Positions 518-9,085 of a DNA stretch of 64,000 nt are shown piece by piece. The translations under genes and the position numbers were made by a program. The stretch lies in NCBI GenBank assembly GCA_019233975.1, contig JAFALY010000019.1, forward strand, positions 1-64,000, in the 5' to 3' direction. Position 1 is the stretch's first letter; every line of letters begins with the position of its first letter. The DNA comes from Alphaproteobacteria bacterium (GTDB lineage Bacteria; Pseudomonadota; Alphaproteobacteria; UBA9219). A model generated the notes under the pieces. That model was not told the origin of the DNA. It saw only the letters and a program-made list of their open reading frames with translations, and did not search any database.

Positions 518-1453
518 ATGACGCTGCGCTTCGCTCCGCTTATATTATTGCTGGCCCTTCTGACTGGATTGGCCTATCCCCACAACGCACAGGCTCAAAC
601 CAATCTGTGTACGTCGCAGCCATCCGACGGTGCGGCGTACACATATAACATTTTCAGTAATTGCCACACCGTGACAAACAACACGGGTGCCACAATCTGC
701 GTGATGACCGGCACCAGCAGTGAATGGAGTACTTTTACCGCCAGCAGCACGCCCTGGAGCGGGGTGAGTGTCGGTTCATGTTGCAGTTGTACGTACCCTT
801 GGGGGGGGACGCAGGCCTGTGGTACGACCGGCGTTGATACGGGGCGCTATTTCAAACAAAACGTTTATGTAAATGCCTGTTGTCCTAACATTATTTCATG
901 TAACGGCGTGAAGGTAACAGCGGACTGCAGCGCTTCTGCGGTTCTTTCATGTTATGACGGGTATGGTGACTCCGGTTGTTCACCTACTTATACAAGTTGT
1001 ACCCTCCACAGTAGCGGTGGTTGCTTTGTTTCAGACGTGTCAATCTTGATGTCTGATGGTAGTCGTAAATTTATCTCAGAAATACAAAAGGGGGATGTTG
1101 TCAAAGGCGAGACGTCTGACAACGAAGTCCTGGAGGTCAAGACAATAGAAACTTCCGAAGACCTTTATGGCTTTAATGGGGGCCAGGCGTTCGTTACCGG
1201 TGGACATCCATTCAGGACAGATCAGGGTTGGAAATCTATTGACCCCAGCCTGACATCCAAGGAAGGTCATGCGGTTGATACGACGCCGTTGCAGATCGGA
1301 GATAGGCTGCTCACTGAAACAGGGTCGGTGGAGGTACGTAGCATAGAGCGTTATCCTGGGGGACCGCACAAAGTATATAACCCCATGACGGATGGGGATC
1401 ACACCTATTTTGCCAACGGCCTGCTTGTGCATAACAAGTGCGTCCAGTGTTAG
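518..1453 (+). CDS. Secreted Cys-rich protein with C-terminal Hint (Hedgehog/intein-type) autoprocessing domain
   Basis: 311 residues. Residues 1-26 are a signal peptide (hydrophobic core LILLLALLTGLA, cleavage after AQA). Residues 27-168 are a secreted domain with about 14 cysteines, which I do not recognise. Residues 169-306 are a Hint domain: nucleophile Cys169 in GGCFVSDVSILMSDG, block B motif TGGH at 227-230 followed by PFRTDQGW, and the terminal block YFANGLLVHN with His305-Asn306. All elements needed for N-S acyl shift and Asn cyclisation are present. Only five residues (KCVQC) follow the HN, and the +1 residue is Lys, so ordinary protein splicing is not expected; cleavage or transfer of the N-terminal domain to another nucleophile is. 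It lies 77 bp after the S74 gene and 10 bp before the next secreted protein, probably one transcription unit. The fold call is firm, the biological role unknown. Confidence 0.88.
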   Translation: MTLRFAPLILLLALLTGLAYPHNAQAQTNLCTSQPSDGAAYTYNIFSNCHTVTNNTGATICVMTGTSSEWSTFTASSTPWSGVSVGSCCSCTYPWGGTQACGTTGVDTGRYFKQNVYVNACCPNIISCNGVKVTADCSASAVLSCYDGYGDSGCSPTYTSCTLHSSGGCFVSDVSILMSDGSRKFISEIQKGDVVKGETSDNEVLEVKTIETSEDLYGFNGGQAFVTGGHPFRTDQGWKSIDPSLTSKEGHAVDTTPLQIGDRLLTETGSVEVRSIERYPGGPHKVYNPMTDGDHTYFANGLLVHNKCVQC

Positions 1454-1463
1454 GGAGAACTTG

Positions 1464-2069
1464 ATGCGTGGCCATAGATTAACGGCAGTTTTTCTTGCGG
1501 TTTTCTGTATTGCCGCCATGCCTGTATTCGCAGCAGATAAGGCTGCTGTAACGAAAGATCAGCCAGCTAATGCGGGGCGCTCTGCGACCTCAAGCCAAAC
1601 AGCTTCGACAGATAATGCTGTGACAGGCCCCTTTGCCGAAATAGCCTATGCTGGGAATATTTGGGTTGTAGAGGCAGGGGATCCCACAGCTAACTATGCT
1701 GCTTGTGCCGCTTATTCCAAGGCGGGGCCTAACGCCCTGCAGAGTGCCCGTGATCTGGCTACCAGGATGGACTTTGCCAGAACCAGACAGGATACGGGCA
1801 CAGACGACAAGGTTGTCCTTTCAGTTTATGCAGAGTATGACCCCAGTATTTATGATAAAGCCATTATGTTTGACGATGTTTCTGTGACTGCCAACAGAAG
1901 GCAGATGATGCGTGTCGTGCAGCGTTTTAAGCCGGAAATCCTCAAGGCACGGTTAGAGAGTGCCACCACTGTCAAATTCAGCCTGGCCGGTAAAACGACG
2001 CAACTACCAGCCACTTTGTTTTTGCAATTACTGGATAAGCTTGATCAGTGCGCGACGCTCAAGAAGTAG
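1464..2069 (+). CDS. Secreted protein of unknown function, paralogue of the 3264-4004 product
   Basis: 201 residues starting at ATG 1464, which has a good ribosome binding site (GGGAGAA) seven bases upstream; longer in-frame starts would run into the Hint gene. A signal peptide covers about residues 1-23 (FLAVFCIAAMPVFA, cleavage before ADKAA), followed by a low-complexity Ser/Thr/Ala linker and a domain starting around PFAEIAYAGNIWVVEAG. The C-terminal part (TVKFSLAGKTTQLPATLFLQ, then LLDKLDQC) matches the arrangement in the gene at 3264-4004 (TALQFDDNKLEIPASVLFEL, then SEKLDSC), so the two are homologues. No known family is recognised. It follows the Hint gene by 10 bp and is probably cotranscribed, suggesting a periplasmic or surface partner. 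Confidence 0.75.
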   Translation: MRGHRLTAVFLAVFCIAAMPVFAADKAAVTKDQPANAGRSATSSQTASTDNAVTGPFAEIAYAGNIWVVEAGDPTANYAACAAYSKAGPNALQSARDLATRMDFARTRQDTGTDDKVVLSVYAEYDPSIYDKAIMFDDVSVTANRRQMMRVVQRFKPEILKARLESATTVKFSLAGKTTQLPATLFLQLLDKLDQCATLKK

Positions 2070-3103: not shown

Positions 3104-3263
3104 GATTTATGTCCATTGCGTGTGGCCTAGCCTTGCAGCAAAACACACACTACAGAACTGTCCGATATCCGCAAGGCTTGTGTAAGGTGACAGTATTTAT
3201 TCTTGCCCCGCCTGTAAGGCGAAGCTAGCATTAAACGACCAGATACAACGGATGGGTGACCCG

Positions 3264-4004
3264 ATGAAGCAGACATGGCGTGGACCTGGATTGGCATGTG
3301 TCGCAACACTGACTGCACTTTGCTCTCTCACGACGCCGGCAGAAGCTGGCTGGTTTGATAAGCAATCAGACGAACCAAAGGCCTCCTCCAAACCCGCCAC
3401 GCCGACGACTGTGCCGGTGACTCCGCCCGCCGCAGTGCCGGCTGGCCCCCCACCCGGTATGCCAACCTCTGGGCCAACGGTCACAAATTATGCGGAGATT
3501 AAAGACGGCACAGCCACATGGGTTGTGATAGAACAATCACTCATGGGCGGTGAAACGCAGGCACAGTGTACAGCCGCGCATGGCGGAACGATGCCCGGTA
3601 TCGTTCCCGACGTGACGGCCAGTTTTATTCGCGTGCATGGAGCCACCCTGCCGGGACAACCGCTGGCCGACAAGTTGCAAATCATGCTGACATCGAATGT
3701 GGCTCCTGAGAAATCCAATATCGGGGTACTGGTTGATGATAAGAAAGCAGAGACGCAGATCGCAGCGCGTAACTACATGCGCGGCGCCACGATTGACATT
3801 ACTGATGTCAAAGCCTTTGAGCAGGGTTTGAAAAAAGGCAAAAAAACTGCTTTGCAATTTGATGACAACAAGCTGGAAATTCCGGCGAGTGTCCTGTTTG
3901 AGTTGAGCGAGAAACTTGATTCCTGTGTGGCAGATCAGGAGAAAAAGCTCGCTAAAGCGGCAGAGGAAGCCAAAAAGGCCGCGCCAACACCCGCTAAAAA
4001 ATAA
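3264..4004 (+). CDS. Secreted proline-rich protein of unknown function, paralogue of the 1464-2069 product
   Basis: 246 residues from ATG 3264, chosen because MKQTWRGPGLACVATL gives a normal positively charged signal-peptide n-region; an in-frame ATG at 3252 adds only MGDP. Cleavage is likely after PAEA. A Pro/Ala/Thr-rich linker (about residues 40-75) leads to a domain beginning NYAEIKDGTATWVVIEQS. This domain and its end (LEIPASVLFELSEKLDSC) are homologous to the product of 1464-2069. The tail is a Lys/Ala-rich helix ending in AAPTPAKK. The two paralogues bracket the cytochrome-like gene. No catalytic motif is visible, so a structural or binding role is more likely than an enzymatic one. 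Confidence 0.75.
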   Translation: MKQTWRGPGLACVATLTALCSLTTPAEAGWFDKQSDEPKASSKPATPTTVPVTPPAAVPAGPPPGMPTSGPTVTNYAEIKDGTATWVVIEQSLMGGETQAQCTAAHGGTMPGIVPDVTASFIRVHGATLPGQPLADKLQIMLTSNVAPEKSNIGVLVDDKKAETQIAARNYMRGATIDITDVKAFEQGLKKGKKTALQFDDNKLEIPASVLFELSEKLDSCVADQEKKLAKAAEEAKKAAPTPAKK

Positions 4005-5317: not shown

Positions 5318-5835
5318 CCTTTGGCCAATGCGGCAGCGATGGGCTCAAAAATCTCGGCCATACGCGCGTAAACCGGGCGTTTGAACTCCACAATCAGATC
5401 GACCGCTTCCTGTAAGGTGGCCCAGCGCCAGTTGGAAAACTCAGCTTCGGCCCCGTCATGACCGGACAGGCAGATATCGTCTTCCGATCCCGTAAAGCGT
5501 AGAGCAAACCAGGTTTGTTCCTGCCCACGATATTTGCCGCGGAATAGGCCATGTCTGTATTGCAGGTAGTTGGGAAAATCGTAACGCAGCTTCTCCGGCG
5601 CTTCGGCCAGTATCTCTGCTGCGGCCGTACCGATCTCTTCTTTCAATTCTCGGAGCGCGGCAAGACGCGGCTCCTCATGTTTGTTGATGCCGCCCTGTGG
5701 CATCTGCCACGCCCCGTTTTTGTCGGTGCGTTCGGCGATGAAAACCTCGCCCCGGTCGTTAAAAATGCACAGGCCGACGCAGGCGCGATAAGGTAATGTC
5801 TGCGGATCAACAGTCTTTGGGTCAATGCTCGTCAT
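5296..5835 (-). CDS. rppH: RNA pyrophosphohydrolase (Nudix hydrolase RppH)
   Basis: 179 residues. RppH removes pyrophosphate from the triphosphorylated 5' end of mRNA, which starts RNase E-dependent decay; the wider family hydrolyses dinucleoside polyphosphates. The Nudix box is complete: GGINKHEEPRLAALRELKEE followed by IG, with all catalytic glutamates. The opening PYRACVGLCIFNDRGEVFIA and WQMPQGG before the box are typical of RppH. ATG 5835 has CAGG seven bases upstream; an in-frame TTG at 5850 is a weaker alternative. The gene converges on recA, and recA's terminator lies inside its last codons. No catalytic residue is missing. Confidence 0.93.
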   Translation of the reverse strand: MTSIDPKTVDPQTLPYRACVGLCIFNDRGEVFIAERTDKNGAWQMPQGGINKHEEPRLAALRELKEEIGTAAAEILAEAPEKLRYDFPNYLQYRHGLFRGKYRGQEQTWFALRFTGSEDDICLSGHDGAEAEFSNWRWATLQEAVDLIVEFKRPVYARMAEIFEPIAAALAKGKKPPTL

Positions 5836-5912
5836 GGAAACCTGCGTCAATGGCTGTTGATGCAGGATAGCAGGCAGGTGCGCATCGTTAAAGCGTCTTG
5901 CGGCAATACCTG

Positions 5913-6686
5913 TTACAGAACGCCCAGCATACTGGCCACCAGCGGATGACGTACAATATCCTTTTCCGTCAGGCGCACAACGGCGATCCCTGAAACCTGC
6001 TCCAGCTTCCGCGCGATATCGGCAAAGCCCGACATGCCTTCCAGCAGGTCGCTCTGATCCGGGTCGCCCGTCAGCACCATGGTGGAATGCCAGCCAAGGC
6101 GTGTCAGCAACATCTTGATCTGGTTATAGGTGCAGTTCTGGGCTTCGTCGATTACCACAAATGCGTTGTTCAGGGTGCGACCGCGCATGTAACCGATTGG
6201 CGCGATTTCAATCGCTCCATCAGCCAGATATTGCTTCAGACGCTTGCCACCCAAACGATCGTTCAGCGCGTCGTAGAGGGGGCGCAGGAACGGTGCCATC
6301 TTTTCCTGCAAATCACCGGGCAGGAAGCCGATGGTTTCGCCGGCTTCAACCGCCGGGCGTGACAGGATGATGCGGTCAACCTTGCCCGCTTCCATGGCTT
6401 CAACTGCGGCCGTTATGGCCAGATAGGTTTTACCCGTGCCGGCAGGGCCACAGGCCACGACCAGGCTGTTTTTGGCCATTGCTTCGAACAGAGCGGCCTG
6501 ATTGGCGTTTTGTGGCTTGATTTTGCGGGTATAGCTTTGATCGCGGCGGTCAAACGCGGGTTGGTTCAGCGGGTCCCAGGGCGAACCGGAAGAATAAATC
6601 GGTTCAACATTATGTTTTTGGTCGTGCCCCTTATGGTCGTATTTGTCGTTGCGATTAGAACTTTCAAACTGACGACGCTTGGACAT
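5913..6686 (-). CDS. PhoH-family ATPase
   Basis: 257 residues. PhoH-like proteins are single-domain P-loop ATPases related to the helicase core of superfamily 1 and are linked to RNA metabolism; the substrate is not settled. Walker A GPAGTGKT (about residue 80) and Walker B FVVIDEAQN are intact, as are the PhoH signatures RPAVEAGETIGFLPGDLQEK and LTGDPDQSDL. The N-terminal 50 residues are charged, His/Asp/Lys-rich and probably disordered. The start is ATG 6686 with AAGGGG five bases upstream; a GTG two codons earlier is less well placed. It stands apart from the usual ybeY-corC neighbours of phoH and has two possible hairpins in its leader. Confidence 0.92.
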   Translation of the reverse strand: MSKRRQFESSNRNDKYDHKGHDQKHNVEPIYSSGSPWDPLNQPAFDRRDQSYTRKIKPQNANQAALFEAMAKNSLVVACGPAGTGKTYLAITAAVEAMEAGKVDRIILSRPAVEAGETIGFLPGDLQEKMAPFLRPLYDALNDRLGGKRLKQYLADGAIEIAPIGYMRGRTLNNAFVVIDEAQNCTYNQIKMLLTRLGWHSTMVLTGDPDQSDLLEGMSGFADIARKLEQVSGIAVVRLTEKDIVRHPLVASMLGVL

Positions 6687-7066
6687 ACTCACCCCTTTTC
6701 TGTCTGGCTATAAACCAGACGTTGCCCTGACCCGACGCACCACGCGACGGGCCTGATAAAATCTTGAGAAGTGCGGATAGTGTCGGAAGGCTTCTTTGCA
6801 GGCGGCTGTCGAACGGACACAAAACCCATAATCCAATCGCTGATTGGCGTATTTTTGTGAGGTTCTTGAGGGTGTTAATATAACTAACTCCTTCTCCCAA
6901 GCTGCCTTAGCCTACACCCCTACTGTATAGCAATATGGTTAAATTTCTATTGAATTGTGCAGTGCCGCGATCTTTTGCCCACACTGTGGCATGTGTACAA
7001 CGTCCTATTAGTTGCGATAGGATAACGATATAACGAATCCCAACACAACCTGTAGGTATCACGATT
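6687..7066. other. 380-bp divergent intergenic region between phoH-like gene and dapA
   Basis: Both flanking genes read outward, so this must hold two promoters. The left part carries the two leader hairpins of the phoH-like gene (6702-6720 and 6731-6751). The right half is AT-rich (around 6850-6960) and contains no convincing coding frame on either strand. I could not assign -35/-10 boxes with confidence and see no tRNA, riboswitch fold or repeat. Confidence 0.5.
6702..6720 (-). promoter_or_regulatory. Stem-loop in the 5' leader of the PhoH-like gene
   Basis: GTCTGG and CCAGAC form a perfect 6-bp stem with a 7-base loop. The stem ends a few bases before the AAGGGG ribosome binding site of the gene starting at 6686. 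A second imperfect hairpin (CCCGACGC / GCGACGGG, one mismatch) lies at 6731-6751. Position suggests translational or stability control; inference only. Confidence 0.4.
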
Positions 7067-7978
7067 ATGCGCGCACCCTTCCATGGATCCTTCACGGCTT
7101 TGCTGACTCCTTTTACTGACGGCAGGATTGATGAGAAAGCGTTCGCTTCTTTTGTGGCGTGGCAGATTGCCGAAGGTATTCACGGTATCGTGCCCTGTGG
7201 CACAACCGGTGAATGTCCAACACTGTCGGCGGAAGAGCAGGGACGGTTGATCGAGATCGCGATTGCGACATCCAAGGGGCGTGTGCCTGTTATCGCCGGT
7301 TGCGGATCAAATGACACGGCCAAAGCCATTTACCTGACGCAGCAGGCAGAAAAACTGGGCGCCAGCGCCGCGCTGCATGTTGTACCTTATTACAACAAGC
7401 CGACACAGGAAGGTTTGTATCAACACTTTAAAGCCATTCATGACAGCAGCCATCTGCCGATCGTGCTTTACAATGTGCCCGGCCGTACGGTTGCCTCCAT
7501 CAATGTTGAAACCATGGAACGTTTGGCGCAGTTACCGCGCATCGTGGGCGTGAAAGACGCCACCGGTGACCTGACGCGTGTACACAAAACGCGCGCGACC
7601 TGCGGCGATGATTTTGTGCAACTGTCTGGCGAAGACAGCCAGGCCTTGCCTTACCTGACACTGGGCGGCCATGGCATTATTTCGGTCACGTCCAATATTG
7701 CACCGGGCCTTTGCTCGTCCCTGCAGAATGCCTATGCCGCCGGTGATCTGGAGCAGGCGCAGGCGATCAATGACAAGCTTCTGCCCCTGCATGACGCGAT
7801 GTTCTTTGAGACCTCGCCCGGCCCCGCCAAGTTTGCGGCGTCACTTCTGGGGCTATGCCGTAATGAATTCCGCCTGCCGTTGGTGCCGGTGGCCAAGCCG
7901 ACGGAGGCCGTTGTTCACGCCGCCATGCTGCAGGCCGGGTTGCTCGACAATGTGGCCACGATCAAGCGCGCAGTCTAA
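7067..7978 (+). CDS. dapA: 4-hydroxy-tetrahydrodipicolinate synthase
   Basis: 303 residues. DapA condenses pyruvate with aspartate semialdehyde, the first committed step to diaminopimelate and lysine, in the cytoplasm. Family landmarks: FHGSFTALLTPFTDGRIDE at the N-terminus, the PCGTTGE motif near residue 45, PYYNKPTQEGLYQHFKAI with the catalytic Tyr, YNVPGRT, and the Schiff-base Lys in VGVKDATGDL (about residue 163). It is read opposite to dapB and asd, which lie 0.4 kb downstream; the three genes together supply the shared upper diaminopimelate pathway. A start at ATG 7067 agrees with family length. Confidence 0.97.
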   Translation: MRAPFHGSFTALLTPFTDGRIDEKAFASFVAWQIAEGIHGIVPCGTTGECPTLSAEEQGRLIEIAIATSKGRVPVIAGCGSNDTAKAIYLTQQAEKLGASAALHVVPYYNKPTQEGLYQHFKAIHDSSHLPIVLYNVPGRTVASINVETMERLAQLPRIVGVKDATGDLTRVHKTRATCGDDFVQLSGEDSQALPYLTLGGHGIISVTSNIAPGLCSSLQNAYAAGDLEQAQAINDKLLPLHDAMFFETSPGPAKFAASLLGLCRNEFRLPLVPVAKPTEAVVHAAMLQAGLLDNVATIKRAV

Positions 7979-8015
7979 CAGGCGGCCTATCGCCGCTTTG
8001 CTCTGCTGTGTGCAG

Positions 8016-8354
8016 ATGCTGGGTGTTCTTGCGCTGGCGCTTCTGACAGCTTGTAGTTATGAGCCTGAGGTTGATATGCGCGGCATTAACCAGGAACGTT
8101 ACGAGAAAGACCTGAAGGCCTGCACCGGCGTGGCCGAAAAAGCCGACGATACATGTGATCTTGGGGGCAATCTTGGTGGCGGTGGCGGCAATGGAGGCGC
8201 GGTTTACGCACTCATCATCGGTGGCGTCCTTTTGGGTTGTGTGACCTATCATGAAATTGCCGATATGACGATGGATTATCAGGACACTTATGCCGGTGTG
8301 ATGGACCGGTGTATGCGTGAAAAAGGATATCGCGTTATCTCAGGCGGTTACTAA
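8016..8354 (+). CDS. Small glycine-rich lipoprotein
   Basis: 112 residues if read from ATG 8016. The N-terminus is a hydrophobic segment ending in the lipobox LLTAC, so Cys13 is probably lipidated. The start is uncertain because ATG 8016 leaves no basic n-region; an in-frame TTG at 7998 with AGGCGG upstream would give a longer signal, while basic residues (NRR) lie further upstream. The mature part has four more cysteines, a run of glycines (GGNLGGGGGNGG) leading into a second hydrophobic stretch (YALIIGGVLLGCV), and a conserved-looking tail ending MREKGYRVISGGY, similar to tails of small glycine-zipper lipoproteins. It follows dapA by 37 bp and its stop overlaps the end of dapB by 4 bp. No known function. 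Confidence 0.65.
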   Translation: MLGVLALALLTACSYEPEVDMRGINQERYEKDLKACTGVAEKADDTCDLGGNLGGGGGNGGAVYALIIGGVLLGCVTYHEIADMTMDYQDTYAGVMDRCMREKGYRVISGGY

Positions 8355-9085
8355 CCGCCGATGCCCAGCATTTCATTCAGTGTGTAAAGGCCCGGCTTTT
8401 GTCGGCTGAGCCACTGTGCCGCCTGCACGGCGCCACGCGCAAATATACGGCGGTCGGTCACGCTGTGATGCAGGCGGATGACTTCACCTTCGCCTGCGAA
8501 AATCACCGCATGCTCGCCGACAATGTGGCCTGCGCGCACCGATGATATGGGGGGCTGGGGCTTGCCGTTACCTGCGGCAACCTGCTCTGCCAGAAATTTG
8601 GCTGTGCCGGATGGTGCGTCTTTCTTCATGCGGTGATGCTCGTCGGTAATCGCGATATCATAATCATATCCGCGCAGTAATCCCGCCGCGATGCGCGACA
8701 GATGCGCCGTGAGCGCCAGCGACAGGCTGGTATTGGGGGCCAGCATGATGGCGGCATGCGATGATGCTTCACGCGCCAGGGATTGCGTTGTTTGATCCCA
8801 CCCCGTCGTGCCACACATCAGGGCTTTGCCGGTTGCGGCAGCCAGTTGCACATGCGCAGTCGTTGCGGCGGGCAGGGTGAAGTCAATCACAACGTCGCTT
8901 TGCGCAAAAATGGCGGCGGCGTCCGCGGCTGTTGCAACGGCATCGCCGCCATGTTGGGCCGCTATCTGTGTCGATGCATTGCGCAGCTGTGCCGCCGATA
9001 GGGTGACGTCAGGGCCTGCCGATAAAATATCGGCGATCTGCTGGCCCATGCGGCCGCTATAGCCCAGCAAGCCGACGCGCAGCAT
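8351..9085 (-). CDS. dapB: 4-hydroxy-tetrahydrodipicolinate reductase
   Basis: 244 residues. DapB reduces the dapA product with NAD(P)H to tetrahydrodipicolinate. The N-terminal Rossmann motif is VGLLGYSGRMGQQIAD, the central CGTTGW motif lies near residue 92, APNTSLSLAL near 118, and the signature DEHHRMKKDAPSGTA (about residues 147-161) carries the catalytic His-His and Lys. Its ATG overlaps the stop of asd (TAATG), so translation is coupled to asd. It converges with the small lipoprotein gene. The length is slightly short for the family (usually 250-270) without loss of a motif. Confidence 0.97.
   Translation of the reverse strand: MLRVGLLGYSGRMGQQIADILSAGPDVTLSAAQLRNASTQIAAQHGGDAVATAADAAAIFAQSDVVIDFTLPAATTAHVQLAAATGKALMCGTTGWDQTTQSLAREASSHAAIMLAPNTSLSLALTAHLSRIAAGLLRGYDYDIAITDEHHRMKKDAPSGTAKFLAEQVAAGNGKPQPPISSVRAGHIVGEHAVIFAGEGEVIRLHHSVTDRRIFARGAVQAAQWLSRQKPGLYTLNEMLGIGG

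Follow-up and report, generated by a model that had tools for sequence, protein, structure and literature searches.

The Hint gene and its neighborhood

The window, a 64,000-nucleotide stretch of an alphaproteobacterial contig (JAFALY010000019.1), opens with a truncated gene for a protein with a Peptidase_S74 domain. It is followed on the same strand by an open reading frame of 311 amino acids at 518-1453, with an ATG start and GGAAGG directly 5′ of it, and by a gene for another exported protein (Table 1). The 311-residue protein combines a signal peptide, a Cys-rich part (residues 27-168; 142 residues with 14 cysteines) and a C-terminal Hint domain without a C-extein. A residue check located Gly168-Cys169 at the junction, T227-G-G-H230 within the Hint domain and His305-Asn306 at its end, and the catalytic Cys169 is the sole cysteine between residues 169 and 306. 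This architecture, down to Cys169, TGGH at 227-230, the His-Asn (HN) pair and the closing KCVQC, had been described in the first-pass annotation, with which our check agrees residue for residue. Absent from that annotation were a conserved lysine behind HN, the S74 fiber gene upstream and the recurrence of the layout in phages.

Table 1. Features at the Hint locus, in positions of the window.
Feature	Position	Strand	Basis or remark
Upstream gene, Peptidase_S74 domain and coiled coil, cut by contig start	1..440	+	PF13884, 7.6e-16
Signal peptide, aa 1-26, predicted cut AQA|Q27	518..595	+	Sequence; hydrophobic, GRAVY 1.06
N-terminal module of about 60 aa, aa 27-89, C..VTN..G....T..EW..F....GV....C	596..784	+	Profile A4
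Cys-rich linker, PWGGTQAC ... YGDSGC.PTYTSC, C-terminal end Ser-Ser-Gly-Gly168	785..1021	+	Kept in L021; model confidence low
Hint domain, A-type BIL-like, aa 169-306	1022..1435	+	Profiles, AlphaFold2, Foldseek, residue check
Tail Lys-Cys-Val-Gln-Cys (K307-C311) behind Asn306	1436..1450	+	Sequence; stop codon 1451-1453
Exported partner gene	1464..2069	+	10 bases past the Hint gene stop; L021 homologue at same place, BLASTP 1e-17, 32%

The upstream gene retains an intact S74 dyad (SDMRLK, matching SDxxxK, with the motif serine at base 27), consistent with membership in Peptidase_S74 and comparable to self-cleaving phage spikes; no contig overlapping the start of the window was found to complete it. 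The downstream partner is shared only with the homologous locus L021 and was absent elsewhere in the order. We therefore rejected it as a universal companion of the Hint gene, since the third locus with this layout, L125, carries another gene in its place. An exported protein encoded at 3252-4004 of the window has a C-terminal end, LPASVLFELSEKLDSC, that is weakly similar to the end of the downstream partner.

Fold and class of the Hint domain

Profile searches with the protein matched PT-HINT at 4.6e-6 and 27.4 bits, slightly below the cut-off of 27.7, which the match exceeded in the genome scan (28.0 bits). Vint matched at 2.6e-5, and TIGR01443, the intein C-terminal splicing region, scored above its cut-off. 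An AlphaFold2 model based on 26 sequences placed 125 residues at pLDDT ≥ 90, nearly all within the Hint domain, whose fold is thus predicted with high confidence; a model from two sequences only (pLDDT 43) was set aside. The best Foldseek match in the PDB was BIL2 of Tetrahymena (6y75, E 7e-12, TMt 0.81), the closest solved relative by sequence as well as by fold. The gp41-1 intein and the Clostridium thermocellum BIL (2lwy) came next among the nearest solved folds, and Hedgehog (1at0) ranked 28th among the PDB fold matches.

An A-type BIL has a Hint fold, Cys1, TxxH and a His-Asn pair followed by a residue other than Cys, Ser or Thr, all of which are present here, with Lys307 behind HN. It also has flanks on both sides, and as the C-terminal flank is merely KCVQC, we filed the domain as a C-terminal variant of the A-type BIL. 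A class 1 intein would carry Cys, Ser or Thr at +1 and a host C-extein, where this protein has lysine and five remaining residues. Likewise, a Hog domain is followed by a sterol-recognition region, and a PT-HINT of the polymorphic-toxin type by a toxin domain; the protein stops five residues past the Hint domain and carries neither. As it retains HN and leaves no space for a sterol-recognition region, the domain is classed by sequence as A-type-BIL-like and not as a Hedgehog Hog domain. The first-pass comparison with Hedgehog is consequently not upheld as a family assignment, although by analogy it remains a fair description of the domain layout.

Recurrence of the terminal Hint layout

A search for homologues with the same domain order, as proposed in the first pass, recovered the whole layout in L021 and L125. 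Outside an insertion of about 360 residues, the L021 protein is 51% identical to that of the window and has the same ends. It keeps the signal peptide, the N-terminal module, the last Cys-rich segment and the Hint domain, the roughly 360 additional residues being Cys-rich, and ends in LVHNPIK. The complete layout occurs for a third time in L125, a locus from a viral collection whose protein has a Hint domain 53% identical and ends in LVHNKIAPTC. Since L021 shares both ends and L125 is complete, the layout is not a product of chance. Cys1, TxxH and HN are intact in all three proteins. The L021 contig is binned as Paludibacterium, and its Hint gene and partner match the alphaproteobacterial-looking genome of the window; mis-binning or horizontal transfer is possible.

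Further loci of the order (L032, L121, L122, L124 and others) encode exported proteins that are large, rich in cysteine and closed by a Hint domain, which retains Cys1 and TxxH but not HN; several of these proteins also carry the N-terminal module. Across the order, the majority of Hint proteins have GGLRV, GVRIM or a similar sequence where HN would stand. Beyond the order, the class also contains L238 and L239, which have an exported Cys-rich N-terminal part and end exactly in VHNK and a stop codon, and L237. The same terminal Hint ending closes many exported proteins whose N-termini are unrelated, in Alphaproteobacteria and in phages; a phage protein of L127 (2024-2893) likewise stops after VHNK. 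The terminal, extein-less Hint domain is thus a recurring layout and not a truncation. Viral scans with the window protein and with the PSTNGR1 protein yielded no confirmed match.

The first-pass annotation had tied its proposal to conservation of both Cys169 and the HN pair among homologues. Of the two, only the cysteine is invariant; most of the order's Hint proteins have lost HN. This combination suggests that the wider family can do without Asn cyclization but keeps the N-S chemistry, and N-terminal cleavage is probably the common step across these proteins.

Several further arrangements were observed. L237 encodes two tandem exported proteins (5443-7044 and 7225-8922), each with a C-terminal Hint domain without HN and a 30-residue tail. 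They are possibly fiber-like; a fiber origin was dropped, as the similarity to an S74 fiber is weak (E 0.002). One phage reading frame on the viral contig L175 (5530-7344) contains three successive Hint ends with HN-K. In L012, L014, L096, L102, L105 and L107, a Hint domain with Gly at +1 splits a phage-like host-specificity protein and is classified as an internal BIL, seen in several genomes of the family. The genome of the window also encodes, on C19, a second Hint protein of 186 residues without an obvious N-terminal domain (L031, 6671-7228), which ends in HS, not HN, followed by a 19-residue basic tail.

A near-constant lysine behind the Hint domain

Lysine occupies +1 in 36 of 38 short-tailed Hint proteins (viral and bacterial pooled) and forms the majority in each of the 13 N-terminal families, which are clusters of unrelated pre-Hint regions; as a control, 13% of 738 other reading frames from the same loci have a terminal lysine. 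The search patterns for Hint ends included VHN but not the +1 position, and both codons, AAA and AAG, are used. Among distinct viral Hint ends, +1 lysine was found in 19/20 with a tail of at most 10 residues versus 12/31 with longer tails (Fisher p 7e-5, indicative only because the sequences are related). L021, with Pro at +1, is an exception. Past +1, the tails are highly variable.

BIL2 is known to form an isopeptide bond to lysine, and the literature describes it as a ubiquitin-dispensing platform; its reacting lysine sits in the ubiquitin-like domain behind BIL2, and the +1 residue is not stated (PMC8616854). Together with the lysine at +1, this bond makes lysine transfer by the Hint domain a concrete hypothesis rather than a result, albeit one for which a precedent exists.

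The N-terminal module and S74 fiber genes

Profile A4 detected the N-terminal module at 47 loci in 18 of the 33 genomes of the order, with one weak match beyond the class among 398 genomes of the phylum, and the module is thus a lineage-restricted domain. It had no PDB profile match, and model confidence was only about 60-70 in AlphaFold2; for these reasons we claim no fold for it. At five of the 47 loci (G000:C26, G006:C90, G022:C219, G024:C11 and G026:C46), against about 0.04 expected by chance, an S74 gene lies directly 5′ of the module gene and shares its strand; most of the 47 are not beside S74. Two further module genes directly downstream of S74 were found in the class (L048 and L051). 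In T-even phages, a fiber gene is followed by the gene for its tip adhesin (gp37-gp38). As the order of S74 and module genes resembles this arrangement, we take the N-terminal domain as a probable fiber partner, and the adjacency suggests a fiber or pilus role for the module.

In two phage loci, PSTNGR1 (L034) and L188, an S74 fiber gene overlaps the Hint gene that follows. As a general phage rule the pairing was rejected, with just one match in 80 Hint loci besides PSTNGR1.

The same genome encodes a type IV pilin-like protein (N_methyl) with a C-terminal S74 domain (L030, 7161-8549, on C19), which by sequence is a PilV-like adhesin with a phage-type chaperone. It adjoins a Dot/Icm type IVB secretion cluster (DotM, with two DotI and DotH nearby in L031). 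In another genome, G003, a Hint/module gene (L122, 653-7256) stands next to an ATPase gene whose start is similar to that of the ATPase in this cluster.

A proposed model for self-maturation outside the cytoplasm

Our preferred reading, to which we assign a probability of roughly 60%, is that the gene encodes a disulfide-rich protein, exported to the surface, whose maturation is carried out by the Hint domain at its C-terminus, the N-terminal domain being probably a partner of an S74 fiber or pilus. The domains, the catalytic residues, the architecture and the gene order are established here; cleavage, acceptor, location and fiber role are what we infer. Export via the signal peptide and folding would come first, outside the cytoplasm. 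Cys169, assisted by T227 and H230, would then attack the carbonyl of Gly168, and this N-S acyl shift would leave the Cys-rich domain as a thioester. Its resolution by water or an amine would free the N-terminal domain, which would probably serve as the partner or tip of the trimeric S74 fiber (or of a pilus adhesin) encoded directly upstream. Cyclization of Asn306, dispensable in relatives, could remove or expose the KCVQC tail. Water has a little less than an even chance of being the final nucleophile; lysine or another amine is a less likely choice that still deserves attention, with the conserved K307 as the best candidate acceptor, and the lack of a recognition region makes a sterol-like alcohol unlikely. 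The model is supported by the catalytic residues and fold, by the Cys-rich exported N-terminal part and terminal Hint domain shared by the window, L021, L125, L238, L239 and the L032/L121/L122/L124 group, by the isopeptide bond of BIL2 and the +1 lysine, and by the S74 genes directly upstream of module genes. Against it stand the loss of HN in most of the order's Hint proteins, Pro at +1 in L021, the position of the BIL2 lysine in the domain behind it, the truncation of the upstream S74 gene by the contig end, the minority share of module genes beside S74 and the phage S74-Hint pairing in two cases only.

Nearly balanced odds attach to a plain A-type BIL that would cleave itself at both termini by water, with no transfer, an irrelevant tail and a +1 lysine that only aids the last strand or Asn cyclization. 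A-type BILs do yield mainly cleavage products (PMC4031507; PMC7765530), and the tail is very variable past +1, but if just one residue were removed, it would be difficult to see why many unrelated proteins retain HN and lysine at their extreme end. In the most ambitious version, which we consider improbable, a widespread ATP-free system ("Hint-Lys") on alphaproteobacterial exported and phage virion proteins would transfer the upstream domain, through its activated C-terminus, to the ε-amine of a lysine, either at +1 or on a neighbor such as the S74 fiber, yielding isopeptide-linked assemblies on the surface or in the virion. Even less probable is a decayed Hint domain retained as a structural cap without catalysis, which would suit the many relatives in the order that lack HN but not the intact Cys1, TxxH and HN of the window protein, L021 and L125.

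A true Hedgehog analogue, in which thioester attack by a lipid or sterol-like alcohol anchors the N-terminal domain to the outer membrane, is very unlikely: the domain order and the Gly ahead of Cys1 are those of Hedgehog, but five residues replace the sterol-recognition region, HN is kept and the closest folds are BILs. Equally disfavored is a polymorphic-toxin relic whose toxin cassette was lost from behind the Hint domain; the best Pfam match is indeed PT-HINT, but otherwise unrelated homologues terminate at this very residue or just a few residues later, which bears out the contrast with such toxins drawn in the first pass. Moreover, the gene that follows encodes an exported protein of its own, and no toxin domain was matched.

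The layout and the near-constant lysine suggest, at the level of sequence, a shared means by which proteins may be released or linked outside the cell. If true, extein-less bacterial intein-like domains would have a job, self-maturation or covalent linkage outside the cytoplasm, with surface adhesins and phage tail-region proteins as substrates. The constant lysine makes the Hint chemistry testable with one small protein, and paired self-cleaving S74 (serine) and Hint (cysteine) genes would constitute a new kind of fiber module.

Comparison with known systems

A- and B-type BILs have already been described (PMC7765530, PMC4031507), and Buerglin 2008 (PMC2362128) reported bacterial proteins that are secreted and carry a Hint-like domain at the C-terminus. 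In an incomplete literature search, we found no report of the +1 lysine rule, the spread of the layout among phage proteins or the S74-module pairing.

The upstream gene, though not the Hint gene itself, resembles the S74-ended, self-cleaving fiber genes of the Bdellovibrio mosaic adhesive trimer fibers, in which S74 self-cleavage is known (PMC10769870); no report of a Hint partner for these fibers was found. The proteins of Buerglin share a signal peptide and a C-terminal Hint-like domain with the window protein, but they come from other taxa and were described as divergent from BIL (PMC2362128). Hedgehog likewise combines an exported N-terminal domain, a C-terminal Hint domain and a Gly ahead of the catalytic Cys, whereas the window Hint lacks the sterol-recognition region, carries HN and is more distant in fold. 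The A-type BIL of C. thermocellum (2lwy) agrees in Cys1, TxxH, the HN ending, a +1 residue other than Cys, Ser or Thr, similar size and a near fold; BILs as described are embedded in hypervariable proteins and flanked by sequence at either end, whereas the window protein stops five residues past its Hint domain. BIL2 of Tetrahymena BUBL1 (6tmm, 6y75) is eukaryotic and has a ubiquitin-like domain behind it, where the window protein has a lysine and no domain, but it is the closest solved structure and acts behind a domain that is passed to a lysine.
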